Both the position numbers and the translations under genes were made by a program. Under the pieces are notes generated by a model that saw nothing but the letters and a program-made list of their open reading frames with translations, did not search any database and had not been told where the DNA came from. A stretch of 64,000 bases of DNA, from contig JOEL01000018.1 of NCBI GenBank assembly GCA_000720995.1, positions 62,001 through 126,000 of the forward strand, given 5' to 3'. The stretch is from Streptomyces celluloflavus (GTDB lineage: Bacteria > Actinomycetota > Actinomycetes > Streptomycetales > Streptomycetaceae). Shown in pieces: positions 34,776 to 63,842 of this stretch. The number at the start of each line of letters is the position of its first letter. The first letter of the stretch is position 1.

Positions 34776-35944
34776 CCAGGGCCGTACTGCGCGGCGCCGC
34801 CGCCGCGCTCTGCTCCGCCGTACTGGCCGTACTGCCGGCCGCCCCGGCGCGGGCCGACGGCATCCGCGCCCAGGAATGGTCGCTGGAGGCCATGCACACC
34901 CAGGACGCCTGGCGCACCACCAAGGGCGACGGCGTCACCGTCGCCGTCCTGGACACGGGCGTGGACGCCGACCACCCCGACCTCAAGGGCCAGGTGCTGC
35001 CCGGCAAGGACCTGGTCGGCTTCGGCGCCGGCCCCGGCAACCCGGCATGGGCCCAGCACGGCACCGCGATGTCCGGCATCATCGCGGGCCACGGCCATGG
35101 CGCGGGCCGCGCGGACGGGGTGCTCGGGGTCGCCCCGGAGGCCCGGATCCTGCCGGTCCGGGTGATCCTCGAAGACAGCGACCCGCAGCGCAAGGAAGCC
35201 CGCGCCGAACGCGCCGGCGCCCTCGCCGACGGCATCCGCTGGGCCACCGACCAGGGCGCCGACGTGATCAACCTGTCGCTCGGCGACGACAGCAAATCCG
35301 CGCACCCCGAGCCGCGCGAGGACGCCGCCATCCAGTACGCGCTGGGCAATGGCGTCACCGTCGTCGCCTCCGCGGGCAACGGCGGCGAGGACGGCAACCG
35401 CGCCTCCTACCCGGCCGCCTATCCGGGCGTCATCGCGGTCACCGCCGTCGACCGCTACGGCGCCCGCGCCCCGTTCTCCACCCGCCGCTGGTACGCCACG
35501 CTCTGCGCGCCGGGCGTGGACGTCGTGATAGCCAACCCGGACCGCAAGTACTACGAGGGCTGGGGCACCAGCGCCGCCGCCGCCTTCGTCTCCGGCGCCG
35601 CCGCGCTGGTCCGCGCCGCGCACCCCGGTCTGAGCCCCGCGCAGATCCGCCGGCTGCTCATCGACACCGCGCAGGACGCCCCCGAGGGCGGCCGCGACGA
35701 CACCTTCGGCGCCGGTCTGGTCGACCCGGCCGCCGCCATCGAGGCCGGCCGGAACCTCCGGCCCGCCCCCCAGCTGCCGGCCCCCGCCGCCTACGCCCAC
35801 CGCTATTTCGGCGCCGGACCCACCGCCGCGCCCCGGGAGGACGGCGCCGCCGGCTGGCTCCCGTGGACCGCCGCGGCCGCCGGTCTGGCCCTGCTGACCC
35901 TCGCCGTCCACCTCCGGCGCCCCCGCCCCGCGGCCGTCGGCTGA
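34772..35944 (+). CDS. Mycosin-type S8 serine protease (membrane-anchored)
   Basis: 390 residues. A signal peptide (VLPAAPARA) is followed by a subtilisin domain with Asp61 ([13 protein letters not shown]), His96 ([11 protein letters not shown]), oxyanion Asn203 (SAGNGG) and Ser267 ([11 protein letters not shown]). A C-terminal transmembrane helix ([19 protein letters not shown]) and short basic tail complete the type VII-associated mycosin architecture. No ESX genes (EccC, EsxA/B) are in the window, so its partner is uncertain; the ATGA-coupled upstream membrane protein is the best candidate. The length fits MycP proteins. Confidence 0.92.
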
Positions 35945-48874: not shown

Positions 48875-49309
48875 TCAGTGGGCCGACGGTGTCGGGGACG
48901 CCTGCAGGTGCTTGGCCCGGTCGACGCTGCACACCTGCATTCCGAAGGACCGCAGTCGCCACAGGGTCTTCGTCGAGGGTTTCTGGATGGCGTCGGCGTT
49001 GGGGTAGCCCTTCTCGTCGTGGGCGACGTTGTTGAGCGCGTAGACCTTGCCCTCGGGCGTCGTGAAGGTGATGGCGAAGCCGCTGTATCGGGTCTTGTCG
49101 CAGCGGACCTCGCCCTCCTCGGGCTGCACGGGCCAGGCGGAGCCGAGCTGGCCGGCGGTGATGTGCTGCGGATTGGTCGTCACCGCCGGCCATTTCGTGA
49201 GGGCGTCGCCCTCCTGCGCCGAGCAGCCCGAGACGAGCAGCGGGACGGCCAGCCCGGCGGCCGTCGCGATCAGCACGCGGGCTCGTGACGTGCGAGTGGG
49301 AGCGGTCAT
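48875..49309 (-). CDS. DUF2511-like lipoprotein, possible lantibiotic immunity lipoprotein
   Basis: 144 residues. A basic N-terminus and hydrophobic stretch end in LLVSGC (lipidation Cys about residue 29). The mature part contains TAGQLGSAWPVQPEEGEVRCDKTRY, SGFAITFTTPEGKVYALNNVA and a C-terminal pair of Cys, resembling DUF2511 lipoproteins of Streptomyces. Its ATG overlaps the ABC permease stop (ATGA), so the transporter and lipoprotein are made together. By position it is a LanI-type candidate that binds the lantibiotic at the membrane surface; that role is inferred. Confidence 0.78.
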   Translation of the reverse strand: MTAPTRTSRARVLIATAAGLAVPLLVSGCSAQEGDALTKWPAVTTNPQHITAGQLGSAWPVQPEEGEVRCDKTRYSGFAITFTTPEGKVYALNNVAHDEKGYPNADAIQKPSTKTLWRLRSFGMQVCSVDRAKHLQASPTPSAH

Positions 49310-50820
49310 GAGTTTTCCGCCGCCTTTCGTGTGGCGTGGGTGATGCCGAAGGTGCAGAGGGCCGTCACGACGAGGCTCACCGGAAGGGTCACCGAAATGC
49401 GGTGCAGATCCAGGTAGTTGGCCCAGGAGTAGGGGATCAGCGCCCACAGGTTCTGCTGCATGGCGGTGCCGCCGACGAGCACGCCGAAGAGGATGCCGAT
49501 GATCCCGACGACCACCGCGACGGCCTGCGAGGTACGGATGGCCAGCCAGAGGGTGAAGGTGGTGAGCATCGCGCCGACCACCGCGCCGGTGAGCGCGAGC
49601 AGCCAGGCATGCCCGGCCGGGACGCCGGCTGTCAGGTAGAGGAGGGCGGTGACCAGCGATACGGCGACCGTGACGGCGACCGCGGCGCCGGTGAGTACGA
49701 GAGCGGGGCCCCGGGTGCCGGTGGCCCGCGAGGCGACCGCCCGCCAGCCCTGGCCGGCGGCGCTCCAGACCACCAGGCCCAGTACGAGGGTTCCGATGGG
49801 CAGCACCAGCAGGGTGAACAACTGGACACTGGCATCCGGGGCGTGCCAGGACAGCCACAGCGCGATCAGGCCGACCGAGCCGGGGCACAGCCATGTGAGC
49901 GCGGTTCCGCGGAGCATGCCGAGCACGGCGGCCACCACCCGGGGACCGCCCGGCTCAAGGTGCGGGGCGGGCTCCGTGACCGTGCCCAGGATCGCCGTGG
50001 CCCCCTGCGCGGAAGCCGTCGGCGAGGGCGCCGTCCGGTGCTCGACGGTCCGGGTGCCGGGTCGGCGCAGCCGCGGCAGCAGGAGGAACGGCACCGCGAG
50101 CAGCGCCCCCAGGAGGGCGGATGGCCACGGGGAGGCGCTGATGAGCGCGGAGTGGGCCTCCAGGGCGACACCGTTGGCGTGCGTGCCGATCACCGGCAGG
50201 GCTCCGCGGTCGAGCCAGGTGAACGGCAACGCCGCCCAGGCGGTGGACTCGGCGTTCACCACCCCCAGCACCGTCCACACGAGTCCCACGGCGAGCGCCA
50301 CCCGCCACGAGGTCTGCCGTGCCAGCCACAAGATCAGCGCCAGCATGCCGAGTTGCGAGATCCAGGGCACCAGGACGGCTTCCAGCGCGCGGTCGGCGGG
50401 GACGCGCTGCGCGCTGGACAGCGCCCCGAGGACGAGCAGGGGCGTACCGGCGCCGAGCACGTTGAGCAGCAGTGACCGTACGGCCAGGACGGCGAACCGG
50501 CTCAGCTGCCGGTACGCCGGGCGGACGGGCCGGTACCGGGTGCCGCCGCCGCGGGCGCCGCGGTCGATGCGGGCCGCCGTGGCGACCAGCAGCACGGTGA
50601 GCATCGGGCCGACGAACATCGCCCACAGGTTCTGGTACCCGAGGACGTCCTGCCAGGACCTGCCGGGGCCGGCCGAGACGAACACCGCGCTGCTGACGAG
50701 GCCGAAGGCCAGTCCGCCCAGCGGCAGATACGCCACGGCGCTGCGTCGCCAGGTGGCGAACTCGGCGCGCAAGGTCGCGGGCAGGCCGGGAACCGGCGCC
50801 GTCGGTGCGGCGGTGGTCAC
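49306..50820 (-). CDS. ABC transporter permease (large, about 12 helices), probable self-resistance
   Basis: 504 residues with roughly twelve transmembrane helices in two homologous-looking halves (LRAEFATWRRSAVAYLPLGGLAFGLVSS at the start; GMLRGTALTWLCPGSVGLIALWLSWHAP mid-way), which is like a fusion of LanE and LanG-type permeases. GTG start overlaps the ATPase stop (GTGA) and its own stop overlaps the lipoprotein start. With the ATPase it probably expels the lantibiotic from the membrane. Bacitracin- or bleomycin-type export by homology is an alternative. Confidence 0.82.
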   Translation of the reverse strand: MTTAAPTAPVPGLPATLRAEFATWRRSAVAYLPLGGLAFGLVSSAVFVSAGPGRSWQDVLGYQNLWAMFVGPMLTVLLVATAARIDRGARGGGTRYRPVRPAYRQLSRFAVLAVRSLLLNVLGAGTPLLVLGALSSAQRVPADRALEAVLVPWISQLGMLALILWLARQTSWRVALAVGLVWTVLGVVNAESTAWAALPFTWLDRGALPVIGTHANGVALEAHSALISASPWPSALLGALLAVPFLLLPRLRRPGTRTVEHRTAPSPTASAQGATAILGTVTEPAPHLEPGGPRVVAAVLGMLRGTALTWLCPGSVGLIALWLSWHAPDASVQLFTLLVLPIGTLVLGLVVWSAAGQGWRAVASRATGTRGPALVLTGAAVAVTVAVSLVTALLYLTAGVPAGHAWLLALTGAVVGAMLTTFTLWLAIRTSQAVAVVVGIIGILFGVLVGGTAMQQNLWALIPYSWANYLDLHRISVTLPVSLVVTALCTFGITHATRKAAENS

Positions 50821-51575
50821 GACACCACCGTCCCGGCTTCCTGCGGGTGGCCGGCCAGCGTGAAATAGGCGCGTTCGAGATCCCCGTCCGGCGCCAGTTC
50901 GGCCAGGCTTCCCTGGTAGCGCAGGCGCCCTTGTGCGATCAGGCCGATGTCGTCCGCGACGGAGGCGACTTCGCCCAGCAGATGGCTGGAGAGGACGATG
51001 GTGCGGCCGGTGTCCGTGAAGCGGCGCATCATGGCGCGCAGCGCGGCGATGCCCTCCGGGTCGAGACCGTTCTGCGGTTCGTCCAGGATGAGCAGGTCCG
51101 GGTTGCCCAGCATGGCGATGGCCAAGGCCAGGCGCCCCTTCATGCCGGTGGAGAAGGTCTTGGCCTTCTTCCGTTCCGTGCCGGCGAGTTCGACCGCCGC
51201 CAGCGTCCGCTCCACCTCCTCCTCGGGCAGGCCGAGCAGATGTGCGTGCACCATGAGGTTCCGCCGCGCGGACAAGTGGCCGTAGAAACTGGGCCCGTTG
51301 ACGCTCGCGCCGATGCGGGACAGGGCCTGCCGGTCCCACGGCCGGCCGAACAGCCGCACCTCCCCCCTGGTGGGAGGCAGCAGGCCCAGGATCATTTTCA
51401 GCGTGGTCGACTTGCCCGCACCGTTGGGGCCCAGCAGGCCGTAGACCCTGCCGGGGCGTACGAGGAGGTCGGCGGAGTCGACGGCGGTCGAGCGGCGGAA
51501 GACCTTGGTCAGGCCCCGCGTCTCGATCACCGGGAGCGCTCCCGGGGGCGTCTGGGGAACCGGTGCCGGTTGCAT
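50817..51575 (-). CDS. ABC transporter ATP-binding protein, LanF/BcrA-like
   Basis: 252 residues. Walker A GPNGAGKST, signature FSTGMKGRLALAIAML and Walker B LLILDEPQNGLDPEGI; the QNGLDPEGI stretch and the segment IGASVNGPSFYGHLSARRNL resemble lantibiotic-protection ATPases (LanF), although the Glu usual there is Asn. ATG 51575 follows AAAGGAG. A 17-bp BlaI-type operator lies 13-29 bp upstream. First gene of a three-gene operon with permease and lipoprotein. Confidence 0.88.
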   Translation of the reverse strand: MQPAPVPQTPPGALPVIETRGLTKVFRRSTAVDSADLLVRPGRVYGLLGPNGAGKSTTLKMILGLLPPTRGEVRLFGRPWDRQALSRIGASVNGPSFYGHLSARRNLMVHAHLLGLPEEEVERTLAAVELAGTERKKAKTFSTGMKGRLALAIAMLGNPDLLILDEPQNGLDPEGIAALRAMMRRFTDTGRTIVLSSHLLGEVASVADDIGLIAQGRLRYQGSLAELAPDGDLERAYFTLAGHPQEAGTVVS

Positions 51576-51587
51576 GGCACTCCTTTC

Positions 51588-51604
51588 TGCTACGCGCTGT
51601 AGCA
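51588..51604. promoter_or_regulatory. BlaI-type operator 1 (before the immunity ABC operon)
   Basis: TGCTAC-GCGCT-GTAGCA is a perfect 6-5-6 inverted repeat just upstream of the ATPase start. The same design occurs at 53062-53078 and 60812-60828. Confidence 0.78.
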
Positions 51605-51683
51605 CATTTGGGTGTGGGGATGCCTCATGCGTTGACGGTGGCGAGCGCTCGGCGGGCCGCCGGGGGCGGCCCGCGCGGGAGTC

Positions 51684-52619
51684 TCAGAGCAGGATGGCCG
51701 CGGCGCCGACGGCCGCCACGATCACGGCACGGACCGACCACGCCTGCCAGGCCGGCAGCGTCCGGGGCGGGTCGGCCAGCGCTCTGGCGCGATGGGTGAG
51801 TTCGATGCCGGGGTCGAGGAAGGCTATGCCGCCCCCGGCAGGCGCGAGGCCGCGACCGGCCGCCCGGGAGCCGGCCTCGATCTGCGCGCACAGGGCACGG
51901 GCCACGGCCGCGGCGCCGTAGGTCTCACGGGCCTCCTGGTCGGCCCGGAGTTCGGCGGCGAGCCGCATCTCGCCGAGGATCGCCTTCCGCCCGGGAATCC
52001 ACCACCACGACCGCAGGGCACAGGTGGCGAGGAAGATCCACAATGGGTGATGCGCCCGTGCGTGGGCGCGCTCGTGACGGATGATCGCGGACGCCTCGGC
52101 GGACTCCGCCACGGCGGCGGCCAGGATGATCCGGGGGCGCACCAGGCCGACCGTACTGGCCAGGCTCCGCGGGGACCCGGCGTCGTCGTCCACGATCCAG
52201 ATGCCGCCGCACTGGCGGGGCGCCAGCATCGTGACCGTACGTGCGGTGCGCGCCACGCGTAGCGCACCGGCCGCGAACGATACGGCCAGTGACACCAGCG
52301 GTACGACGGAGGCCGCCAGTATCAGCTGCGACCCGAGGGCCGACAGGATGTGTGCGGGGTCGGCGTCAGTGATGCCGTTGCTGATGCCCCAGGCGATCGG
52401 CGCCCGCCACGGCAGCGCCTCGCGCAACGGGCTGTGCGGCAAGTAGGGCACGGCCACGGCCAGCAGGGGAGTCAAGGCGGCCGCCACCGCGAGGGTGAAC
52501 CGTTCGCGGGGCGGTAACCGCAGCGTCAGGCGGCGCAGCAGATGCCATGCGCCGACGGTGGCCAGCGGGCACCATACCGCGAGCATCACCTGCGGGTAGC
52601 CCAGCCAGTTCGCACTCAT
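51684..52619 (-). CDS. M56-family membrane metallopeptidase (BlaR1-like, no penicillin sensor domain)
   Basis: 311 residues with three to four N-terminal transmembrane helices, a central zinc-peptidase domain with HERAH (His182, Glu183, His186) and the downstream ELRAD (Glu223), and a final helix (VRAVIVAAVGAAAILL). In BlaR1/MecR1 such a domain cleaves the BlaI repressor after a signal. The extracellular penicillin-binding domain is missing, so the signal must come through the helices or loops; lantibiotic-lipid II stress is an inference. ATG overlaps the blaI stop (ATGA). Confidence 0.88.
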   Translation of the reverse strand: MSANWLGYPQVMLAVWCPLATVGAWHLLRRLTLRLPPRERFTLAVAAALTPLLAVAVPYLPHSPLREALPWRAPIAWGISNGITDADPAHILSALGSQLILAASVVPLVSLAVSFAAGALRVARTARTVTMLAPRQCGGIWIVDDDAGSPRSLASTVGLVRPRIILAAAVAESAEASAIIRHERAHARAHHPLWIFLATCALRSWWWIPGRKAILGEMRLAAELRADQEARETYGAAAVARALCAQIEAGSRAAGRGLAPAGGGIAFLDPGIELTHRARALADPPRTLPAWQAWSVRAVIVAAVGAAAILL

Positions 52620-53062
52620 GCGGCACCCCCCGGCGCATCCGGCGGTTCCTCCGCACGGGAGTCACGAGGCGGGTCGGTGATGCCGGCCAGCAGGGCGCGC
52701 ACATGCGCGAGTTGCCCGGCGTCGCCGCTGACCGCCCGGACGAAGTGCGCCACGGCGAGGTCGCCGAATCCGTCGACCACCTGGCGCACCTGCTCGGCGG
52801 CCACGCGCTGCTCGACCTCGCGCCGGGACTGCCGTGGCCAGTAGACGTACTGGCGGCCTTCCTTGCGGCGGTCGAGCAGTTCCTTGATGACCAGACGCTC
52901 CATCACCGTCTTGATGGTGGTGTACGCCTGGCCGCCGTCCAGGTGCCGGACGCAGCCGGCGACATCCAGCTCGCCCTTCGACCACATGACGTCGAGAATC
53001 GCCAGCTCAAGCGGTCCGAAGTGAGCCGCCAGGCCCTGACGCCGTGCATCCCGCGGTGACAT
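52616..53062 (-). CDS. BlaI/MecI-family transcriptional repressor
   Basis: 148 residues: the winged helix (FGPLELAILDVMWSKGELDVAGCVRHLDGGQAYTTIKTVMERLVIKELLDRRKEGRQYVYWP, with YTTIKTVM as recognition helix) and a C-terminal dimerisation helix bundle. It is cleaved by its M56 partner in the family model. I use ATG 53062; TATGGT (53075-53070) is a -10 box 7 nt upstream, suggesting a leaderless message, and the start codon adjoins the operator, a site for autoregulation. ATG 53074 is an alternative. Coupled by ATGA to the peptidase gene. Confidence 0.9.
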   Translation of the reverse strand: MSPRDARRQGLAAHFGPLELAILDVMWSKGELDVAGCVRHLDGGQAYTTIKTVMERLVIKELLDRRKEGRQYVYWPRQSRREVEQRVAAEQVRQVVDGFGDLAVAHFVRAVSGDAGQLAHVRALLAGITDPPRDSRAEEPPDAPGGAA

Positions 53063-53078
53063 GCTACAAACCATAGCA
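53062..53078. promoter_or_regulatory. BlaI-type operator 2 (at the blaI start)
   Basis: TGCTAC-AAACC-ATAGCA is the same 6-5-6 inverted repeat with one mismatch. It covers the -10 box and touches the blaI start codon, so binding would block transcription. Confidence 0.78.
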
Positions 53079-53103
53079 GTTCGTTGTTCCCGTCGGCAGA
53101 TGT

Positions 53104-53916
53104 TCAGTACTCGCCGATCGATCCCTCGCGCCGCGCCCGGGACATCCCGGCCGCGAAGGTGGCCAGCCCGATGGGCAGCATCACCGCCGACCAGACGGCC
53201 AGGTGCGTCAGCGACGGTGCCACCTGCGCCAGACCGGCGTCGACCAGGAGCGATTTGCGTATCCCGTCCAGCGCCTGGGTGGTGGGCAGCGCCCTCGCGA
53301 CGGACTGGAGCCAGCCGGGCAGGATCGAGACCGGATACATGACGCCGGAGAGCAACGTGGTCAAGGTGGTGATGCCCCAGCGCACCGGATCACCTCGCTT
53401 GGTGATGAGCAGCACGCCGCAGCCGGCCAGTCCGAAACTGCCCAGGGTGAGCACCAGCAGAGCCAGGACGGCCAGTGTCGCCAGCAGGTTCACGGAGACC
53501 GGGACGTCGAAGACCGCTCCGAACACCCCGAACATGACCACGGAGCCGAACGTGGTCCCGATCAGCCCACCGACGCCGGAGAACAGCATGACCCGGGTCA
53601 GCGGTACGGGCATCACCACCACCGATTCCAGGGTGCCGGTCCGCTGCTCGGTCTGGAGGTGATTGCTGAAGGCCCCCAGACTGACGGCGACGAACCCGGT
53701 GAACACCGATCCGGACATCAGGAAACTGATGATGTTGCCGCCGTACCCCTGAATGCCGGCGAACGTGTTCCCCTGCTGGAGGAACTTGCCCATGAGGAGG
53801 AACTGGACCAGGGAGACCAGGCCCGTGACGGTGCCCAGCGCGATGGCGGTCCGGTAGGAGCGGCGCTCCCAGTAGATCTGGAGCACATGGACTCCGAACT
53901 GCCGGACGACGTTCAC
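53104..53916 (-). CDS. ABC-2-type permease, lanthipeptide export candidate
   Basis: 270 residues with six transmembrane helices and the ABC-2 layout (FGVHVLQIYWERRSYRTAIALGTVTGL; TGTLESVVVMPVPLTRVMLFSG; LSGVMYPVSILPGWLQSVARALPTTQALDGIRKSLL). GTG start overlaps the ATPase stop (GTGA). It is the last gene of the regulator-lanJ-lanB-lanC-ATPase operon and most likely exports the modified precursor or, alternatively, gives immunity. The gene stops 26 nt before the blaI operator. Confidence 0.88.
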   Translation of the reverse strand: MNVVRQFGVHVLQIYWERRSYRTAIALGTVTGLVSLVQFLLMGKFLQQGNTFAGIQGYGGNIISFLMSGSVFTGFVAVSLGAFSNHLQTEQRTGTLESVVVMPVPLTRVMLFSGVGGLIGTTFGSVVMFGVFGAVFDVPVSVNLLATLAVLALLVLTLGSFGLAGCGVLLITKRGDPVRWGITTLTTLLSGVMYPVSILPGWLQSVARALPTTQALDGIRKSLLVDAGLAQVAPSLTHLAVWSAVMLPIGLATFAAGMSRARREGSIGEY

Positions 53917-54608
53917 CGCACCTCCTGCGAGGACGCCGGTTCGGGTGAGCCGGCCGCCGATGCGTGGCGGACCCGTCCCGCCCCGATCTGAAGGAACCGT
54001 CCGGTCGCCGTCCGCACGTCGTCCTCGTTGTGCGTGGAGAACAGGGCGCTGCCGCCGCCCTCGGCGTGGCCGGCGAGGATCCGGTGGAACCGTGCGACGT
54101 TCTCGGCGTCCAGGTTCGCCGTGGGTTCGTCGAGCAGCAGCAGTGGTGGACGCCCCAGCAGCGCGCGGGCCAGGCCGAGACGTTTGCGCTGCCCCAGGGA
54201 CAGCCTCATGAAGGGTGTGCCGGCCTGCTCCGACAACCCCACACGGTCCAGGACGTCCGCCGCCTCGCGCTTGGCGCGGGCGCCGAACAGACCGCGCAAC
54301 GAGGCGTAGTAGCGCAGGTTCTGGGCGCAGGTGAGCCGGAAGTAGAAGCTGCGCTCCGGGTACAGGGACACTCCGAGGTGTGCCCGCGCGGCCGCCGGGC
54401 GGCGCACCATGTCCCGGCCCGCGACGCTCACCGAGCCCGTGGTCGGGGTGATCAGACCGCACAGGATCTTCAACAGCGTCGTCTTGCCGGCCCCGTTCGC
54501 CCCGAGCACCGGCACCAGGTGTCCGCCCGCCACGGTGAAGTCCGCTTCGGTGAACACCGGAGTTCCGGCCTTGCGGTAGGACATCGAGACGTTCCGTACG
54601 GTCAGCAC
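53913..54608 (-). CDS. ABC transporter ATP-binding protein, lanthipeptide export candidate
   Basis: 231 residues. Walker A GANGAGKTT, signature LSLGQRKRLGLARALL and Walker B LLLLDEPTANLD; N-terminus VRNVSMSYRKAGTPVF. It pairs with the ABC-2 permease following it. ATG overlaps the lanC end by 7 nt, so it belongs to the biosynthetic operon. Single-chain LanT with a C39 peptidase is absent; the two-component exporter resembles those of other actinomycete lanthipeptide clusters. Confidence 0.88.
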   Translation of the reverse strand: MLTVRNVSMSYRKAGTPVFTEADFTVAGGHLVPVLGANGAGKTTLLKILCGLITPTTGSVSVAGRDMVRRPAAARAHLGVSLYPERSFYFRLTCAQNLRYYASLRGLFGARAKREAADVLDRVGLSEQAGTPFMRLSLGQRKRLGLARALLGRPPLLLLDEPTANLDAENVARFHRILAGHAEGGGSALFSTHNEDDVRTATGRFLQIGAGRVRHASAAGSPEPASSQEVR

Positions 54609-55948
54609 GCCGCACCTCCGCAGAGCATGGCCTCCGCCGTCGTGATGCGGTCCCGGTCCAGGGAGACGAGCGCGACCGCGGCACCGCCCGAACCGGTCAG
54701 GAAGCCGGGCGAGTCGGTCTGCGCCCCCGGGACGTTGTCGTTGCGCAGTCCGAACACGGCGCGCGGATCAGCCATCTCCAGCAGCCGCTCAAGCGTCGCC
54801 TGCGCCGGGCCGCCGCACTGCCGCCCGTACGAGGCGGCCACCGCGGCGACGTACCGCTGGACGGTGATCCGGCCCGCGATCCCGTGGCACAGGGAGGGGT
54901 TGTCGATGTGCCGCAGCTCGGCCGGGCGCCGCTCGACGGACTCCAGCAGGCCGATGGCGGTGTCGAGGAATCGCTCGTCCACCCTCGCGCAATGGGCCAG
55001 CGCGACGGCCCCGCCCAGGTTCCCGTAGCACCACGCGGACCGCGCCAACCCCTGCTGCCCGCGCTGCCGGTCCGGAGGCAGCTTGAAATAGGGCAGGCCG
55101 GGGCCGTAGCCGGTGTCCACGAGACAGTCCGTGATCAGTGCGCCCAGGACCGACACCGCGCGGCTCAGCGCCGGTGAGGTCAGACCGCGGGCCGCCGCCG
55201 TGCCCAGGAGGGACGCGACACCCGAAATCCCGTGGGCGAAACCGAGGTTCAGATAGCCCCCGTGCAGCTGGGGCGGCCCGTTCCGCTCCACCTCCGTGAT
55301 CTTTCCGGCGGGCGTCCACAGCCCCAGCGGTGGCGGCACGAGGACCAGTCGGCAGAAACGGTCCACTATGCGCTCGGCCATGGCCCACCGCCGCTCGTCG
55401 GCGTCACCGGAGGCGAGGAGGTACATCCCGGCCCCGGCGAGCCCCGAGATCACGTCGTAGTCCGCGCAGGCCAGCCCCCCGGAGGGAGGAAGCGCGGCCA
55501 GCTTGTCCTCGACGCGCGTGATCAGGGTGGCCTCCACGTCGTGGAGGGCCCGGCGGTAGCGTTCCCCGCCGCGGGACAGGGCGCGCAGGGCGTAGGCGAC
55601 CGACGCCGACCCGCCGAACAGCCCGATTCCGAGGTCCACGGTGCGGACGTAGTGCTCGACCAGGCGCCGGGCATGCTCGAAGGCGAGCCGGTCCCAGCCG
55701 TCGTCGGGGCGGAGCTCGTCGGCGGCCGAGTACACCAGGGCCATACCGAGGTCGCCCGGATCGGTGCTGAGCGGATGCCATGCCACGGCCGGCTCGCCGG
55801 TGAACGGATTCGGAATCCGCAGATCGGCCAGGTCACCGCGGTAGTCGCGCAGCCGGTCCAGAATGTCCCAGCCGGTGTCCACCGCCTTCCGCCGCGCCCG
55901 CTCGCCGATCGGTGCGGCGGACACCCGCTTCTCGTCATGCACAGTCAC
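54602..55948 (-). CDS. lanC: Lanthionine synthetase C (cyclase LanC)
   Basis: 448 residues of the LanC alpha/alpha barrel. Zinc ligands are Cys307 (AWCYGNLGG), Cys354 and His355 (NPSLCHGIAG); the catalytic base equivalent is His239 (GFAHGISGVASLLG) and the acidic Asp165 is in YDVISGLAG, all matching NisC. It adds Cys thiols to dehydro residues of the precursor, forming (methyl)lanthionine rings. GTG start (55948), preceded by GGAAGGA; it overlaps the lanB end by 14 nt and is coupled. Length is usual for class I cyclases. Confidence 0.95.
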   Translation of the reverse strand: MTVHDEKRVSAAPIGERARRKAVDTGWDILDRLRDYRGDLADLRIPNPFTGEPAVAWHPLSTDPGDLGMALVYSAADELRPDDGWDRLAFEHARRLVEHYVRTVDLGIGLFGGSASVAYALRALSRGGERYRRALHDVEATLITRVEDKLAALPPSGGLACADYDVISGLAGAGMYLLASGDADERRWAMAERIVDRFCRLVLVPPPLGLWTPAGKITEVERNGPPQLHGGYLNLGFAHGISGVASLLGTAAARGLTSPALSRAVSVLGALITDCLVDTGYGPGLPYFKLPPDRQRGQQGLARSAWCYGNLGGAVALAHCARVDERFLDTAIGLLESVERRPAELRHIDNPSLCHGIAGRITVQRYVAAVAASYGRQCGGPAQATLERLLEMADPRAVFGLRNDNVPGAQTDSPGFLTGSGGAAVALVSLDRDRITTAEAMLCGGAAC

Positions 55949-58900
55949 GGCCGGATCGTCCTTCCCTGTATGCCTGGGCGCGCCTGACGGCGTCGAGGAG
56001 AAAGAGCGCTTGGTACTCGCGGTGCCGGGGCAGGCCCAGCCGGTTGGCGAACATGTGCAGCAGGCTCTGCAGGGTCATCGCCCGCAGCGGCCAGGGCCGG
56101 CCCTCCCGGGTGAGAGCCTCCGCCAGTGCCCGGGTGCCGGGCAGCAGATGGTCGCGGAGCAGCGGGCTCGCCCCGAGCGCCGCGTCCGACGGCGGTCGGC
56201 GCACCAGTGGACGGACCGCCCGGCGCAGATCGGGACCCGCCGCGGAGAACTCGGCCCGATAGCCGTTGCCGACGGTCTCCAGGAGATCGCGGGTCTCCCC
56301 GTCGGTGAGCTCCAGGGCCGACAGATACCCGTCCAGCAGATGGGCGGCGTCCCGCAGGAGCGAACCCGGCGGGCCGTCCAGTGGTTCCCTGCCGCCGAGC
56401 GTGTGCACCGCCCGCGTCACCTCCGGCGCCACGCACAGGAGGGTGCTGCCGGCGAGGATCCGGGACTCGGTGCAGAAAATCTGCTCCGCGATCGGCATGG
56501 CGCCGGCTCCGCCGTACCGTTCGAGTTCCCGGACATAGGTGTCGACGGAGAAGCGGTGGGCGAGCCGGTCCCGTACGCACCCGCCGATCACCTCGCGCAC
56601 CCGCTCGAAGGGCACCGGGCCCGAACGGACTCTGATGCGGAGGTGGTCGGCGGGATCGCCGTAGCGGACGTAGAACCAGTTGTTCGCGAACTCCTCGCCC
56701 GCTCCGGCCAGTCGGGACAGGATCTCGTTCTGCGCCTCCCGCTCGCCGTACACCCGCAGATACCACCACTCGTCGCCCGGTGCGAGGGTGCGCAGCGCGT
56801 CGGCCGCCACGTCGTAGCGCGGTGCCGCCGGGGGCGGGGGAGCGGAGACCGGTCGGCGGGCGACCGCCGAGAACACCGCCTCGCTCGCGTACCGGCGGCC
56901 CGCACGGTCCCGGACGATGCCCATCCGGTGCGGCGCGGGGGCCTGCGCGACGAACTCCGCACCGTCCCCCGCCTCCCGGCGCAGCAGGTCACGGTGGATC
57001 CGGTCGGCCAGGTGCAGCAGGAGGCGGTTGTCGTGCGTGCCGATGTGGACGTGGTCCGGCAGCCCGGCCTCGGCCGCCCACCGCACGAGCCGCTCGTCCT
57101 GTTCACCGGGAGTTCCCGTCAGCGCCGGGACGCGCCACATGGGCGGGGAGAGGGTCACGCCGCCGAACTCCACCCCGGGCAGGAAGTCTGCCAGCGGCTC
57201 CAGCTCGCTCCAGGTCCAGGCGGGCCTGCACACACCGTCCAAGGCGATCTCCTGAAGGAACCGCACCACACCGGTGGCGATCTCCGGGGTGACCAGATTC
57301 GCCGTGCGGATCTCCACCGGCCTGCCCGTGGGGGCGTGGACCAGATGGAATCGGCCGCCCTCGACGCCGACCAGCAGGTCCGCGAACGCGATCTGTTCCG
57401 GCGCCGGCTCACCGGCGTCCTCCCACACGCCCGTCGTCACCTTCAGCCGGTAGTCGTACACGCTCGGCGCGACCGCCACGTTGTTCACCCGCGACCGGTT
57501 GCTGACGTAGTCCAGCTCGCACAGCAGCGCGTCGCCGTGCACCGCCTTCTCGGCGCCGATCACCTCGCGGACGTGCGCCTCGACGGCAGGGTCGCCGTGC
57601 GCGAACCTGCCGCCCGCCTTCCCCGCGGGGGTCGCCACGCCGACCGGGGACAACGTGATCCGGATGTCTTCCCCTTCTCCCCGGTCGAGCTGGAAGAACA
57701 CGTCATAGCTCGTCGGCGGCGTCCCGGCCGCGGCCGGGAACGCGGCGAGATCCTCCGGCGTGATCGTCACGGTGGTGGTGCCGGTGCGCCGGGCGCGGTC
57801 GATCAGGGCGGCCCGCAGCCGACGGCCCGCGAGGAAGGACTCGTCGCCGTGCTGCACTCCTTCGTTCGGCCGGTGCGGCGAGGACGGGTACCCGGCGGGG
57901 GCGCCGATGCCCCGTACGGGGTCGAACAGGCGGTGCAGCGGGACGAGCGACCGGCCGAAGGTGTCGGCGAACAGCTCGGTATGGCGCCGGAGTTCCGGGA
58001 AGCCGGACGACAGGAGCGACATCCGCATCAGTGCGTCCACCGCCGCCTCGATCTCCGGCGCGATGTGCGCGGGCACCTGCCCCGACATCGCCAGGGACAG
58101 GTCGACCTGGAGCTGTTCCTGCACCGCGTTGCCGTCGGTCCGCAACGCGGCGTAAACGGCCCGCAGTTCGCGGGTTCCCTCGCCGACCGCGGTGGCGCGA
58201 TAGGAGGCGATGGCCTCCCGCGCGGCCCGCAGCCGCTGCGCCAGCCGGCCGTCCCCGCCCTGGCAGGCGCGGGTCCACCGGGCCATGGGATCGGTGTCGA
58301 AGGCCGACGGCGTCAACTCGGTGAGGAGGATCCCGTGCCGGACGAGCTGGCCGACGAAACGGGCCAGTACCTCGCGGTCGGCGTCCGGGAACGCCTCGGC
58401 GAGGCTTTCCCGTATCGCCGCGAGCGCAACGGGGCGGTGGGCCATGCCGATGGCGTGCCGGACCGGCGGTGTGTGTCTGACGCTGGACGTCTCGTTGACC
58501 TTTCCTTCGTCCGCCTGGGGGTTCACCATCACCGCGATGCGGTCGCCGGTCAGGTACGCGGTGGGGTTGGCCACCACGCGCAACCGGGGGCCGAGGCCGG
58601 CCACGGCGAGATCGGTGAGGTCCTTGAGATAGGTGAAGCCGACCCGGGCGTGCTTCCGGTGCTCTTCGCGTCGGCCCAGCACGAGCGGCTCGGCCCCGAG
58701 ACCGACGACCGCGGTCCCTCCGAAGACACCGAAGGGCGTGGTGCGCGTGGCGATGCGCAGCGCGTATTTCAGCAGCGCCCGGTAAAGCGAGTGAATCTTT
58801 TTGCCGTGTGTCCGGTGACCGCCGCCCGCGGCGGCCGGCGCCGACAGCAGAGAGTCGACCTGATCCGCGAGAACGGAGCTGGCCACGCACACGGACTCCC

Positions 58901-59039
58901 GGAAGACCGCCTCGGACCACAGTCGGCGAATTCCGTCGAGCGGATCGCGGTCGGCCGGCCGATCCGGATAGAAGTCGGTGGGCAGGATGGGGGACCGGAG
59001 CAGTACGCGGTGCGATATTTGATATTCAGAACGCGTCAT
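55935..59039 (-). CDS. lanB: Class I lanthipeptide dehydratase LanB (full length)
   Basis: 1034 residues: N-terminal Lant_dehydr_N glutamylation region (about 1-740) with the motif ATRTTPFGVFGG (about 98-108), and the C-terminal SpaB_C-type glutamate-elimination domain (about 760-1030; WWYLRVYGEREAQNEIL, NNWFYVRYGDPADHLRIRVR). It uses glutamyl-tRNA to activate Ser/Thr of the precursor and eliminates glutamate to give Dha/Dhb. The enzyme is not split, unlike in thiopeptide clusters. ATG starts 12 nt after the lanJ stop. Its partner precursor is at 61070-61225. Confidence 0.95.
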   Translation of the reverse strand: MTRSEYQISHRVLLRSPILPTDFYPDRPADRDPLDGIRRLWSEAVFRESVCVASSVLADQVDSLLSAPAAAGGGHRTHGKKIHSLYRALLKYALRIATRTTPFGVFGGTAVVGLGAEPLVLGRREEHRKHARVGFTYLKDLTDLAVAGLGPRLRVVANPTAYLTGDRIAVMVNPQADEGKVNETSSVRHTPPVRHAIGMAHRPVALAAIRESLAEAFPDADREVLARFVGQLVRHGILLTELTPSAFDTDPMARWTRACQGGDGRLAQRLRAAREAIASYRATAVGEGTRELRAVYAALRTDGNAVQEQLQVDLSLAMSGQVPAHIAPEIEAAVDALMRMSLLSSGFPELRRHTELFADTFGRSLVPLHRLFDPVRGIGAPAGYPSSPHRPNEGVQHGDESFLAGRRLRAALIDRARRTGTTTVTITPEDLAAFPAAAGTPPTSYDVFFQLDRGEGEDIRITLSPVGVATPAGKAGGRFAHGDPAVEAHVREVIGAEKAVHGDALLCELDYVSNRSRVNNVAVAPSVYDYRLKVTTGVWEDAGEPAPEQIAFADLLVGVEGGRFHLVHAPTGRPVEIRTANLVTPEIATGVVRFLQEIALDGVCRPAWTWSELEPLADFLPGVEFGGVTLSPPMWRVPALTGTPGEQDERLVRWAAEAGLPDHVHIGTHDNRLLLHLADRIHRDLLRREAGDGAEFVAQAPAPHRMGIVRDRAGRRYASEAVFSAVARRPVSAPPPPAAPRYDVAADALRTLAPGDEWWYLRVYGEREAQNEILSRLAGAGEEFANNWFYVRYGDPADHLRIRVRSGPVPFERVREVIGGCVRDRLAHRFSVDTYVRELERYGGAGAMPIAEQIFCTESRILAGSTLLCVAPEVTRAVHTLGGREPLDGPPGSLLRDAAHLLDGYLSALELTDGETRDLLETVGNGYRAEFSAAGPDLRRAVRPLVRRPPSDAALGASPLLRDHLLPGTRALAEALTREGRPWPLRAMTLQSLLHMFANRLGLPRHREYQALFLLDAVRRAQAYREGRSGRDCA

Positions 59040-59051
59040 GAGCAGTATTCG

Positions 59052-60041
59052 TCACCAATTCAGTGATGCCGTTGCGGCCAGAATCTCGCTGAGGTCCAGC
59101 AGTGTTTCGTCCGTGCCGTACCAGGACTGCACCCCGGTCAGGTTGAGGATGACTTCGTCTACGTCGGCGGCTGCGTATTCGGCCAGACCGGCGGCAATGT
59201 CGGCGGGTCTGCCGTAGAGGAATGCGCCACCGGCAACCAGTGCCCGTGCGGCGGCGGTGGAATCTCCTGTCGAAACGTCGATTCCGGCTCGGGCCAGCAT
59301 GTCCGCGTAGTGCGGCAGCACGAGGTGTCCGCCCGCGGCCAGATGGGCCAGTCCGGCCGGATGTCGGCCCCGCCGGGCCACCGCCACGGGAACCGCGGCG
59401 ATGACGCGAGGGCGGGGCCGGGCGGCCGAGGCGGCGCCCTCGGCCACTTCGGGCACCACGACCCGCCGCACGTAGTCGGCGGGGGTCAGCCAGGTGAGCG
59501 CCGCATCGGCGACCTCTCCTGCGGTCCGCGCCATCCGGCGCCGCAGGACGCCCAGCGCGAGCTGGACGCGCGGGTGCGCCACCGGTGGCAACGTCTGCCC
59601 CGCGTGGAAGTACCGGTGAGCGGAGCCGGCGCTTCGGGCCGGGGGATCCCAGGGCTGCGCCAAGCAGTCCCGGGTGGCCCGCAGGAATTCGGCACTTGCC
59701 GCGACGGGGTCGCCGTAGGGCGCGCCCAGCCTGGTGCGTTGCACCGCCCGGCTGCCCGGCCCGTATCCGATGACGGCCGGATGCCCGGTGACGGCGGCCA
59801 CGGTCCGTGCCTCCAGCGCCGCCTGGGCCGGGTGCCGCAGCGGCGTGACCAGAACGGAGGTGCCCGCCGGGACCCGATACCCCGCTCCGGCCAGATAGGC
59901 GAAGGTCGCGGCCGGTTCCAGCCCGTAGCTCTGGCCCTGCCAGAGGCGGGTGAGCTGGGAGTCATGGGCCACGTGGCGCGCGAACGGTACGGCCTGCTCG
60001 ACCGTCCCGGGAACCGTCGGTAAGAGCAGCGAAAGCCTCAT
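59052..60041 (-). CDS. Luciferase-like flavin/F420 oxidoreductase, LanJ candidate
   Basis: 329 residues of the LLM class: MRLSLLLPTVPGTVEQAVPFARHVAHDS, YRVPAGTSVLVTPLRHPAQAALEARTVAAVTG and the C-terminal ADVDEVILNLTGVQSWYGTDETLLDLSE. LLM-type F420H2-dependent reductases in lanthipeptide clusters (LanJC, e.g. in lexapeptide synthesis) reduce Dha to D-Ala; the position between regulator and lanB fits that. An oxidative role cannot be excluded. ATG 60041 overlaps the stop of the SARP gene (ATGA). Confidence 0.78.
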   Translation of the reverse strand: MRLSLLLPTVPGTVEQAVPFARHVAHDSQLTRLWQGQSYGLEPAATFAYLAGAGYRVPAGTSVLVTPLRHPAQAALEARTVAAVTGHPAVIGYGPGSRAVQRTRLGAPYGDPVAASAEFLRATRDCLAQPWDPPARSAGSAHRYFHAGQTLPPVAHPRVQLALGVLRRRMARTAGEVADAALTWLTPADYVRRVVVPEVAEGAASAARPRPRVIAAVPVAVARRGRHPAGLAHLAAGGHLVLPHYADMLARAGIDVSTGDSTAAARALVAGGAFLYGRPADIAAGLAEYAAADVDEVILNLTGVQSWYGTDETLLDLSEILAATASLNW

Positions 60042-60715
60042 CGCCGCCCTGCCGGCGGGAGCCCCAGGCTCCTCAGATAGGAGTCCGACAGCACCGCCGA
60101 GCACGGATCGTCCCCGGTGACAGCCGGTTCCGCCAGTTCCCAGTGGTCGATCAGCCGGCTCGTCACCTTGATCAACTCCTGGTCACCGGAGTCCAGTACG
60201 GCTCTGACCAGCCGGTCCTCGACCTTGTGGCGCAACGAGACCGCGAACGGGCTGTCGCACTCCGGCAGACAAGGCCCCTGGTAGAGAAGCAGGGCGTCAG
60301 CCGGCCTCCCCGCCTCGACGAGAGCGAGGGCCGTCAGCGCGTCGACCGCAACGGGCTCGGGCAGCACATAGCGACGGCCGGGCGCCACGTAGTGCACGGC
60401 GATGCCCAGCTTGCGGGCCCGGTACGCCAAGGTGGGCAGGGTCGAGGCGGACACATCCCGTTCGTACATGCGATGGTGCAGGCCGTCGCGGCTCATGGAC
60501 CCGCCGGCCGCGGCCAGCGCCGTGATGAACTCCATCGTCCTGCTGCTGGTGACCGGCCTGCCGTCGACTTCGAACCGGCCCAGAACGCTGATCTGCGACC
60601 CGGCCGGCAGATCCACCCTCAGTTGCGCGTCAAAGTCGAAATGCGGAAGCGCGGGCGATACGGAGAACATCTTTTCGATATACGCCACTTGCCTTGATGA
60701 TGCCGTTCCCGACAT
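60038..60715 (-). CDS. SARP-type regulator (short winged-helix plus BTAD-like region)
   Basis: 225 residues. After an N-terminal arm, ISVLGRFEVDGRPVTSSRTMEFITALAAAGGSMSRDGLHHRMYERDVSASTLPTLAYRARKLGI is a winged helix of OmpR/SARP type, and PVAVDALTALALVEAGRPADALLLYQGPCLPECDSPFAVSLRHKVEDRL resembles the start of a BTAD domain. It is short compared with most SARPs (about 270). The ATG 60715 has GGGGGAG 9 nt upstream. It starts the divergent biosynthetic operon and probably activates the precursor promoter through three CGTGTGA repeats found there. Confidence 0.78.
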   Translation of the reverse strand: MSGTASSRQVAYIEKMFSVSPALPHFDFDAQLRVDLPAGSQISVLGRFEVDGRPVTSSRTMEFITALAAAGGSMSRDGLHHRMYERDVSASTLPTLAYRARKLGIAVHYVAPGRRYVLPEPVAVDALTALALVEAGRPADALLLYQGPCLPECDSPFAVSLRHKVEDRLVRAVLDSGDQELIKVTSRLIDHWELAEPAVTGDDPCSAVLSDSYLRSLGLPPAGRR

Positions 60716-60811
60716 TCGTCACTACTCCCCCGATTGCATTCACGATGATCACCCGAAGGGCGAGCGTGACGCGGACTTCAGTCATTCCGCCCAACGGGTA
60801 GTGCATACACT

Positions 60812-60828
60812 TGCTACACGCTATCGCA
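60812..60828. promoter_or_regulatory. BlaI-type operator 3 (biosynthetic promoter region)
   Basis: TGCTAC-ACGCT-ATCGCA matches operator 1 at 14 of 17 positions. On the minus strand it overlaps TTGCGA and the spacer of a promoter-like pair ending TATGCA, 97 bp before the SARP gene. It would bring the biosynthetic operon under BlaI control. Confidence 0.6.
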
Positions 60829-60957
60829 AGATGTCGGATGGTCAACAAGGCATTACGCATCCCGCATTACTGCGGAAACGCCAGAAGTATCAGAAGCCCC
60901 AGCGCCGGGAGCAATTACCTCCGCCTTCCCTGCATATCGGGCAAATGGGGTGGTTTC

Positions 60958-60986
60958 CGTGTGACTCCCGTGTGATCGGCGTGTGA
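60958..60986 (+). promoter_or_regulatory. SARP-type direct repeats upstream of the precursor gene
   Basis: CGTGTGA occurs three times, at 60958-60964, 60969-60975 and 60980-60986: exact heptamers with an 11-bp period (one helix turn). SARP proteins bind such heptamer direct repeats just before the -10 box; CAGGCT (60998-61003) lies 11 bp after the last one. The promoter then drives the precursor gene with about 60 nt of leader. Confidence 0.72.
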
Positions 60987-61069
60987 ATTGCGCTTGGCAG
61001 GCTGTGCCTCGGCGAACGCGACGACCGTTCGCAACGACTCCGCATGAGCACCTGGAGAAAGGGAAAGAA

Positions 61070-61225
61070 ATGTCTGACTTCGACCTCGACGCCAAGGTTG
61101 TGGACAACGAGACCGGCGAGCCGGCCCCCCGGATCACCAGTTGGTCGCTCTGCACCCCGGGCTGCGTCACCGCCGCGGGCTGCACCACGAGCGTCTGTAC
61201 CCAGGGCTGTCACGTCAGCAAGTAA
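61070..61225 (+). CDS. lanA: Nisin-like class I lanthipeptide precursor (LanA)
   Basis: 51 residues. The leader (1-21) has FDLD (residues 4-7, the FNLD-type box bound by LanB/LanC) and ends ...APR, so cleavage gives a 30-residue core starting ITSWSLCTPGC. Ring-forming residues Ser3, Cys7, Thr8 and Cys11 are at the same places as in nisin rings A and B, which wrap lipid II pyrophosphate. Thr13 and Cys17, Thr18/19/Ser20 and Cys22, and Thr23 and Cys26 could form three more rings; the core ends HVSK, as nisin does. Five Cys, four Ser, six Thr. ATG follows GGAGAAAGGGAAAG. Divergent lanBC genes. Confidence 0.95.
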   Translation: MSDFDLDAKVVDNETGEPAPRITSWSLCTPGCVTAAGCTTSVCTQGCHVSK

Positions 61226-62628: not shown

Positions 62629-63006
62629 TCAGGCTCCAACAGGTTCTGGCCGGCCGTCATCGGCGACGCGCCCGACACGGTGCGCGTAGGCGTCGGCCAC
62701 CAGGAGGAGCCACTCCGTGTCCGCTCGGAGGTCCTTGCGGGAGGCGGCCTCGGCCGCCCGGTAGGAGGTGGAAGCCCGCAGCAGCCCGTCCCGCGCGCTG
62801 ACGGGGTGGCTTGCACGGGCTTCGGCCTCCAGACGCTCGGCGGTGGACAGCCAGGCGTCGTGACGGCCGTTGTAGTCGCCGGAGGTGACCTGGGAGGCGG
62901 TTGCGACGACTTCACCGACGTCCGAGCCGCCGTGGACGGCCAGGCCGAGATGACGCAGGGTCTCGAATCAGAACTGCTGATCGTCCTGGAACATCAGCTG
63001 CTGCAT
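62629..63006 (-). pseudogene. Truncated alpha/beta-hydrolase (FrsA-like) remnant with an internal stop
   Basis: Translating the minus strand from ATG 63006 gives QDDQQF-stop-FETLRHLGLAVHGGSDVGEVVATASQVTSGDYNGRHDAWLSTAERLEAEA then SARDGLLRASTSYRAAEAASRK, the N-terminal region of FrsA-like esterases (usually DEQFWFETLR). Codon 13 is TGA (62970-62968) where Trp is expected, and the frame ends after 125 codons without the catalytic domain (family about 380). Both defects point to a decayed gene. It overlaps the NmrA gene end by 13 nt. Confidence 0.78.
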
Positions 63007-63842
63007 CGCATCTCCCTCTCAAGGAGGGCCCGGAAGGTGCGCGGGGGCCGACCGGTGAGGCGCTGGACGGTGTCGGTGATGCGGTCCTCCGCCCCTTCGG
63101 CGATGGCACGGTCCATGCCGGCCAGCATTGCGGCGAACTCCACCGGCACCTGCGTCGTGAGATGGTCGCGCATCTGCTCGTAGGACAGGCGGTGGTGGGC
63201 AACGGTTCGGCCGGTGACCTCGGTGATGACCGTGGCGATGTCGTCGTGGCCGAGTGCCTCGGGTCCGGTGAGGACGAGATCGGTGTCGGGGGCTTGCTCG
63301 TCGGTCAGCGCGTGCACGGCGACGGCCGCGATGTCCTCGGCGTCGACGAAGCCGACCCGGCCGCTTTCGGTGGCGGTCCGGATGATGCCCTCGTCGCGGA
63401 TGCTGCGGGCGTGCGCGTGCGTGCCGGTGAAGTTCTGCATGAACCACGAGGGGCGCAGTACCGCCCACTGTTCGAAGAGATCGGTCAGGGCTCGGTGCAC
63501 CTTTCCCACCGCCGGGCCGCCCTCGGGGATGGCCGAGGAGCTCAGCAGCACCGCGCGGTGCACGCCGGCGGTGCGGGCCTGATGGAGGAACGGCAGCATG
63601 GTCGCCGCGGGGTCGGAGTCGCCCAGGGGCGGTATGAGGTAGACGCGGTCGACGCCGTTGAGGGCGGCCGCGTGGGTGGCGGGGTCGTACCAGTCGAAGG
63701 GGACCGGCTCGGCGCCGGCGACCGGGGCGGCCCGGCGGCTGGCGGCTTTGACGCGGTGGCCCGCGGCCGTCAGCTGTGCGGCGGTGCGGCTGCCGGTGGT
63801 GCCGGTGGCGCCGATGACCAGAGTGGTGCCGGCGGTGGTCAT
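62994..63842 (-). CDS. NmrA-family NAD(P)-binding protein
   Basis: 282 residues. The atypical SDR nucleotide site is LVIGATGTTGSRTAAQLTAAGH; DWYDPATHAAALNGVDRVYLIPPLG and SSSAIPEGG follow, and ALLRPSWFMQNF (here AVLRPSWFMQNF) marks the NmrA/quinone-oxidoreductase-like group. It may bind NADP as a redox sensor or reduce a quinone-like compound. Its ATG overlaps the stop of the SnoaL-like gene, so the two are coupled. Confidence 0.88.
   Translation of the reverse strand: MTTAGTTLVIGATGTTGSRTAAQLTAAGHRVKAASRRAAPVAGAEPVPFDWYDPATHAAALNGVDRVYLIPPLGDSDPAATMLPFLHQARTAGVHRAVLLSSSAIPEGGPAVGKVHRALTDLFEQWAVLRPSWFMQNFTGTHAHARSIRDEGIIRTATESGRVGFVDAEDIAAVAVHALTDEQAPDTDLVLTGPEALGHDDIATVITEVTGRTVAHHRLSYEQMRDHLTTQVPVEFAAMLAGMDRAIAEGAEDRITDTVQRLTGRPPRTFRALLEREMRCSS

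Follow-up and report, generated by a model that had tools for sequence, protein, structure and literature searches.

Nisin is a food preservative, and the question raised by this locus is what a nisin-like gene is doing in a streptomycete: which pathway surrounds it, and which product would that pathway make? The stretch of DNA analysed here (hereafter the window) is 64,000 nucleotides long and belongs to a Streptomyces celluloflavus genome of 8.68 Mb in 193 contigs.

The precursor and its gene cluster

The translation of lanA consists of the leader MSDFDLDAKVVDNETGEPAPR followed by the core ITSWSLCTPGCVTAAGCTTSVCTQGCHVSK, with the proposed cleavage site between the two, and a purine-rich ribosome-binding stretch lies immediately 5' of the gene. 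In profile searches LanA exceeded three curated cut-offs: it scored 54.4 bits against TIGR03731 (gallidermin/nisin; cut-off 29.3, E 9.4e-15), 34.9 against Pfam Gallidermin (cut-off 21) and 25 against NF038155 (FDLD class I lanthipeptide; cut-off 20). Hence, the family match is far beyond chance, which bears out the preliminary description of the gene as encoding a nisin-type class I lantibiotic precursor. The identities of the core to nisin and microbisporicin given in that description agree with the sequences of these two peptides. The LanA product is a new member of the known nisin family. An identical described compound was not found in the open-licence literature, and within the same literature the earlier statement that no characterised compound has this layout also held.

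The lantibiotic cluster spans about 48875-61225 with lanA at its head, and none of its reading frames in the window is disrupted (Table 1). As described before, lanB and lanC are complete and divergent from lanA, both being full length on the opposite strand; these separate LanB and LanC proteins beside LanA make the system class I. Two genes absent from the earlier account, encoding a regulator and a luciferase-like oxidoreductase, separate lanA from lanB. No Pfam family was found above cut-off on the regulator. Its structural model had a pLDDT of 69, and the best solved match was an AfsR complex at E 7.9e-3, with none at E<=0.001. LanB matched Lant_dehydr_N with 398 bits and Lant_dehydr_C with 118 bits (Pfam), and its nearest solved relatives were the lantibiotic dehydratase 5ehk (201 bits) and, lower, NisB (111 bits). 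LanC matched LANC_like with 119 bits and the structures 8byk and NisC, and its zinc-ligand motifs (WCYG at 306, CHG at 354) aligned to 8byk.

Table 1. Positions of the lantibiotic cluster features within the window.
Feature	Position	Strand	Remarks
lanA	61070..61225	+	51-residue precursor; family profiles, full-length relatives
lanA leader	61070-61132	+	FDLD box, PAPR end
lanA core	61133-61222	+	30 residues, 5 Cys, 10 Ser/Thr
Degenerate palindrome	60812..60828	.	2 mismatches, lanA/regulator divergent promoter; weak
Regulator	60038..60715	-	winged-helix/SARP-like, fold only suggested
Luciferase-like F420-type oxidoreductase	59052..60041	-	329 aa, proposed LanJC
lanB	55935..59039	-	full-length dehydratase, N- and C-terminal domains
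lanC	54602..55948	-	cyclase, WCYG and CHG zinc-ligand motifs
ABC transporter ATPase	53913..54608	-	proposed export pair
ABC-2 permease	53104..53913	-	proposed export pair; start provisional
Palindrome TGCTAC-N5-GTAGCA	53062..53078	.	1 mismatch, at blaI start
BlaI/MecI-type repressor	52616..53074	-	Pfam Penicillinase_R; true start probably 53062
M56 (BlaR1-like) membrane metallopeptidase	51684..52619	-	HERAH motif
Palindrome TGCTAC-N5-GTAGCA	51588..51604	.	exact, directly upstream of lanF
lanF	50817..51574	-	immunity ABC ATPase; ATG 51574 chosen by eye
lanE	49306..50820	-	immunity ABC permease, MutE/EpiE-like below curated cut-off
Small lipoprotein	48875..49309	-	possible LanI-like immunity protein

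The small lipoprotein recurs in all three streptomycete relatives with sequence extending that far; a DUF2511 assignment (E 0.18) was not accepted. No S8 protease that could act as LanP was found among the scanned cluster genes. A conceivable leader protease, an S8 subtilase, is encoded at 33767-35944 (+), beyond the cluster. Directly before the core the leader has R in the window and H, Y, F, M or Q in the relatives; an Arg-directed cut of the NisP kind is therefore not general. On the far side of lanA lie a cytochrome P450 gene (61446-62915, -) and an NmrA-like gene (62994-63842). Both were rejected as tailoring genes after tblastn (E<=1e-3) gave 0 matches in nine relative loci; the search is informative for S. 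cinnamoneus and Streptomyces G090, which have 10 to 14.6 kb beyond lanA, while the contigs of S. monashensis and UNOB3_S3 stop 150-280 bases past the gene.

Relatives of the cluster and the predicted ring pattern of the core

Seven distinct clusters were compared: those of the window, S. monashensis, S. cinnamoneus, S. sp. UNOB3_S3, G090, an uncultured Williamsia and G1028. Among 392 Streptomyces genomes, 15 gave any precursor match, with four full-length relatives including the genome of the window itself; the other matches were planosporicin-like (two) or partial in other frames or long frames (nine). Searches at the level of the order (14 of 293 genomes matching) and of the class (3 of 394) returned a full-length precursor in the own genome only. 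A contig scan gave precursors from S. monashensis (82% identity), S. cinnamoneus (78%), S. sp. UNOB3_S3 (75%) and Williamsia (57%), and when 301 genomes of the Williamsia family were searched with TIGR03731, two matched, Williamsia and G1028. Plasmid searches with the precursor retrieved only three Ligilactobacillus salivarius records (47%); for one of these, no luciferase-like gene was present within ~14 kb on either side in its incomplete gene table.

The genes for the regulator, oxidoreductase, LanB, LanC and ABC pair adjoin lanA in 7/7 clusters. The five streptomycetes have the stretch from lanA to lanF/lanE in common as far as their contigs extend; the proteins of lanB, lanC, the oxidoreductase, the regulator, the exporter, blaI, M56 and the immunity pair are 67 to 91% identical. 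Williamsia and G1028 also carry lanF/E, and no blaI or M56 matches were found in their clusters. At the corresponding place G1028 has a histidine kinase and a response regulator, and Williamsia has a kinase/response-regulator pair, read from ORF translations.

Across the seven cores, T2, S3, S5, C7, T8 and C11 are invariant. The window core matches the residue spacing of nisin rings A (S3-C7) and B (T8-C11), and this pair is inferred to be the lipid II-binding one of the nisin family. Residue 13 is Ser or Thr in all seven precursors, with the third Cys at +4 from it in the streptomycetes and at +5 in Williamsia and G1028. A Thr lies three residues before the fourth Cys in 7/7 cores and four residues before it in 6/7, which favours T19-C22 over T18-C22; T18 is absent from G1028, and the streptomycetes retain both T18 and T19. 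For the fifth Cys, too, the residue at -3 is a Thr in every core. Residues for five successive rings are thus kept in all seven precursors, in line with the five possible rings proposed earlier, and five successive, non-interlocked rings are the favoured pattern. Rings D and E of nisin are interlocked; as far as can be read from sequence, the residues kept across the seven cores give successive rings instead. An overlapping S20-C26 ring would be possible in the window core, and S20 is Ala in G090.

The core also contains an internal repeat, TTSVCTQGC (18-26) against SWSLCTPGC (3-11), with the same spacing and 5/9 identical residues. Its score was matched by 1 of 20,000 full shuffles and by 12 of 20,000 with Cys fixed, statistics that were computed after the repeat had been seen. 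Because the spacing is not retained in Williamsia and G1028, the repeat may represent chance convergence of ring spacing.

A candidate reductase and BlaI-linked immunity genes

The ATG of the oxidoreductase gene overlaps the stop of the regulator gene. The protein matched Bac_luciferase (82 bits, Pfam) and TIGR03564 (103.6 bits, below the cut-off of 234.25). Its gene adjoins lanB in all seven nisin-type actinobacterial clusters found, and it was detected in 0/8 planosporicin-type contexts (tblastn, E<=1e-3), two of which are short (L087 3.2 kb, L090 8.7 kb). The enzyme had 32 further relatives in Streptomyces, and the neighbourhoods of 12 were extended: five held LxmK (class V kinase), three daptide clusters and one LanB/LanC, two showed only M16 and/or CypD genes, and one was without clear class. 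Such relatives thus mostly belong to other RiPP clusters, which is also where LanJC reductases are found. A second copy in the own genome, about 48% identical, adjoins LxmK (460.8 bits, cut-off 315). This copy belongs to a class V lanthipeptide cluster (L069, C10 160000-178000) with LxmK, an M16 peptidase, a CypD-like gene and a luciferase-like enzyme. In Streptomyces G062 (L079/L094), a luciferase-like enzyme and an erythromycin-esterase-like gene neighbour a different LanB/LanC pair; this locus may be a further class I pathway that includes a reductase. In a tree of 35 rows, which was unrooted, the nisin-type enzymes fell on one side of a branch (95/88), apart from the class V/daptide enzymes; the tree left out L051 (a copy of L079), L082 and L083 (no extractable match) and the characterised LanJC enzymes.

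The name LanJC was proposed for luciferase-like enzymes in a report on birimositide (PMC7268733). For LxmJ, Cao12 and MatR1/MatR2, D-Ala and D-Abu formation is reported or proposed in the available text of PMC8498797, PMC8068269 and PMC11162475, the last giving a demonstration by gene knock-out for MatR1, and a LanKC/LanJC pair is predicted for daptides in PMC10036551. An F420 pathway is also represented in the genome of the window, by a gene that matches TIGR03551 with 542 bits (cut-off 374). Given these LanJC precedents and the F420 pathway, the oxidoreductase most likely reduces Dha5 or Dhb2, and the predicted outcome is a nisin-type product with D-Ala or D-Abu. T2 and S5 are also found in nisin-family peptides without the enzyme, so their conservation singles out no target. 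In view of the score below the TIGR03564 cut-off and the separation from the class V/daptide enzymes in the tree, the enzyme may catalyse another reaction.

Beside the immunity genes lies the BlaI/M56 pair, which like its palindromes is absent from the earlier account; the BlaI repressor matched Penicillinase_R with 75.4 bits. The M56 protein has 311 residues with HERAH at 182; its M56 Pfam match of 25.9 bits is below the cut-off of 31, and Pfam detected no penicillin-sensor or other separate sensor domain along its length. The exact palindrome occurs once per streptomycete cluster, before lanF, in 5/5 cases with a varying spacer, and the one-mismatch form overlaps the blaI start in all five. 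A two-mismatch form lies at the lanA/regulator promoter in two of the five; since S. cinnamoneus has a further two-mismatch match near the cluster end, matches of this quality are weak. In the controls, window positions 1-48800 contained none with <=2 mismatches, and 18 other Streptomyces loci (324,018 bases) contained 0 exact, 0 one-mismatch and 1 two-mismatch sites. This distribution suggests that immunity is controlled by BlaI via predicted operator palindromes, and the repressor-sensor pair probably controls self-protection. No paper linking BlaI with lantibiotics was among those listed for this topic in the open-licence literature. BlaI operators, BlaR1 and BlaI inactivation are described in the available text of PMC3305447.

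Proposed pathway, alternatives and known systems

Starting from the genes, their conservation and the palindromes observed here, we infer the chemical steps, ring pattern, target and regulation of what is probably a complete nisin-family class I lantibiotic cluster, with five rings, an F420H2 reductase and BlaI-controlled lanFE. The FDLD leader of LanA would guide LanB and LanC, with LanB dehydrating Ser/Thr residues of the core and LanC closing S3-C7, T8-C11, T13-C17, T19-C22 (or T18-C22) and T23-C26. The luciferase-like enzyme would then use F420H2 to reduce one or more of the remaining dehydro residues, our best guess being Dha5 to D-Ala and/or Dhb2 to D-Abu. The calculated monoisotopic mass of the linear core is 3000.327 Da; with 5 to 10 dehydrations the predicted [M+H]+ would lie between 2911.28 and 2821.23, respectively, and every reduction would raise it by 2.016. 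After export by the ABC pair and leader removal by an unclustered protease, the mature product would bind lipid II, while LanFE, and perhaps the small lipoprotein, would protect the producer. BlaI would control lanFE and itself, with relief via the M56 peptidase.

A bolder version, which we hold tentatively and at somewhat less than even chances, is a hydrogenated nisin in which LanJC has reduced Dha5 and perhaps Dhb2, a second ring pair serves two-point binding and immunity is switched by BlaI/M56. The pair formed by TTSVCTQGC copies the spacing of the lipid II-binding SWSLCTPGC and could give such two-point binding, and BlaI/M56 could act as a cell-wall-stress sensor that turns immunity on. 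D-Ala has been engineered into nisin with LtnJ in the laboratory (PMC10373908); if the proposal is true, nature has already done the same kind of engineering, and a chemically fragile site in a nisin-type antibiotic would gain stability through reduction. LanJC would also be extended to class I pathways, nisin engineering would gain a leader-linked F420 reductase, and a natural pair would allow the role of Dha5 to be tested. BlaI/M56 on the immunity operon would tie a classical antibiotic-sensing circuit to producer self-protection.

Three other readings bear on these proposals. The peptide could be an ordinary nisin-family lantibiotic that the luciferase-like gene modifies in another way, for example by oxidation. 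The fold family does include flavin monooxygenases, which appeared from rank 9 in one of two structure searches and from rank 16 in the other, the Pfam family is named luciferase-like monooxygenase, and the nisin-type enzymes keep to their own side of the tree branch. Yet the top structural matches are F420 reductases (rows 1-15 of the best 50 are F420 enzymes, with flavin enzymes next), the nearest sequence relatives occur in clusters of the LanJC kind, and the MatR1 knock-out showed LanJC function (PMC11162475), so that we regard a different modification as rather unlikely. Less likely still is a decayed or silent cluster whose genes are real and whose active lantibiotic is not made. No leader protease was found in the cluster and the leader end differs among relatives, both of which would fit silence; against it stand the intact frames, the block conserved across five streptomycetes as far as their contigs extend, and a published case in which a cluster lacking a protease gene is reported to yield an active product (PMC12506125).

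The preliminary description had seen in the core a hybrid, with a Firmicutes ring A/B and tail recombined with an unrelated actinobacterial centre. Its centre VTAAGCTTSVCTQGC is indeed unlike that of nisin while both ends are alike, but the Williamsia and G1028 precursors are intermediate. They have TGAL centres (QTGALAC and PTGALGC, respectively), a ring C one residue longer and TITK tails, and the same gene order beside the precursor. The centres of nisin and subtilin contain TGAL as well, and an unrelated actinobacterial precursor with VTAAGCTTSVCTQGC was not found in the genome searches. The Streptomyces centre is therefore better read as shortened than as foreign; a gradual shortening of a nisin/subtilin-type peptide appears to fit better than fusion, and the hybrid has to be considered very improbable.

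Nisin and subtilin have an FDLD-type leader, an ITSxSLCTPGC start, an HVSK/HISK-type end, LanB, LanC and LanF/E, and the window resembles them in all of these, including the LanF/E-type immunity. It differs in its shorter core (30 residues), a ring spacing without interlocked D/E, a two-gene ABC exporter rather than a one-gene LanT, the absence of a LanP gene among those scanned in the cluster, a possibly SARP-like regulator and BlaI/M56 in place of LanRK, and the added F420-type oxidoreductase. Planosporicin and microbisporicin are likewise actinobacterial class I peptides and share the xTSxSxCTPGC start; their GCSHCC-type tails are unlike the window core, and the planosporicin-type contexts lacked an oxidoreductase of this kind (0/8).

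Nisin-like clusters of actinobacteria, overlooked in the preliminary description, have already been published: in Nocardia vaccinii (nisin Novac) and others (PMC7268733), in Corynebacterium (PMC3091789), whose flavucin has a nisin-family precursor in an actinobacterium as in the window, and in 35 Actinomycetota genomes with an expressed Nocardia peptide (Hourigan 2025, PMC12506125). The main text of the last, as available, mentions neither Streptomyces nor luciferase, F420 or reductase, and the available text on published actinobacterial nisin-like clusters does not describe the oxidoreductase, a BlaI palindrome or a shortened centre. The LanJC enzymes (LxmJ of lexapeptide, Cao12, MatR1/R2 and the birimositide enzyme) are similarly luciferase-like members of the F420 family in lanthipeptide clusters, but as far as their reports go they serve class V, class II or AviCys-type pathways, whereas the window enzyme partners class I LanB/LanC. 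From what is available on BlaI/BlaR1 and MecI/MecR1, these systems share the repressor with an M56 gene and palindromes at the repressor gene and the protective operon; the pair in the window differs in being linked to a lantibiotic immunity transporter. Judged against the open-licence literature, the combination of a class I nisin-type peptide with BlaI-linked immunity and an F420-type oxidoreductase is new.
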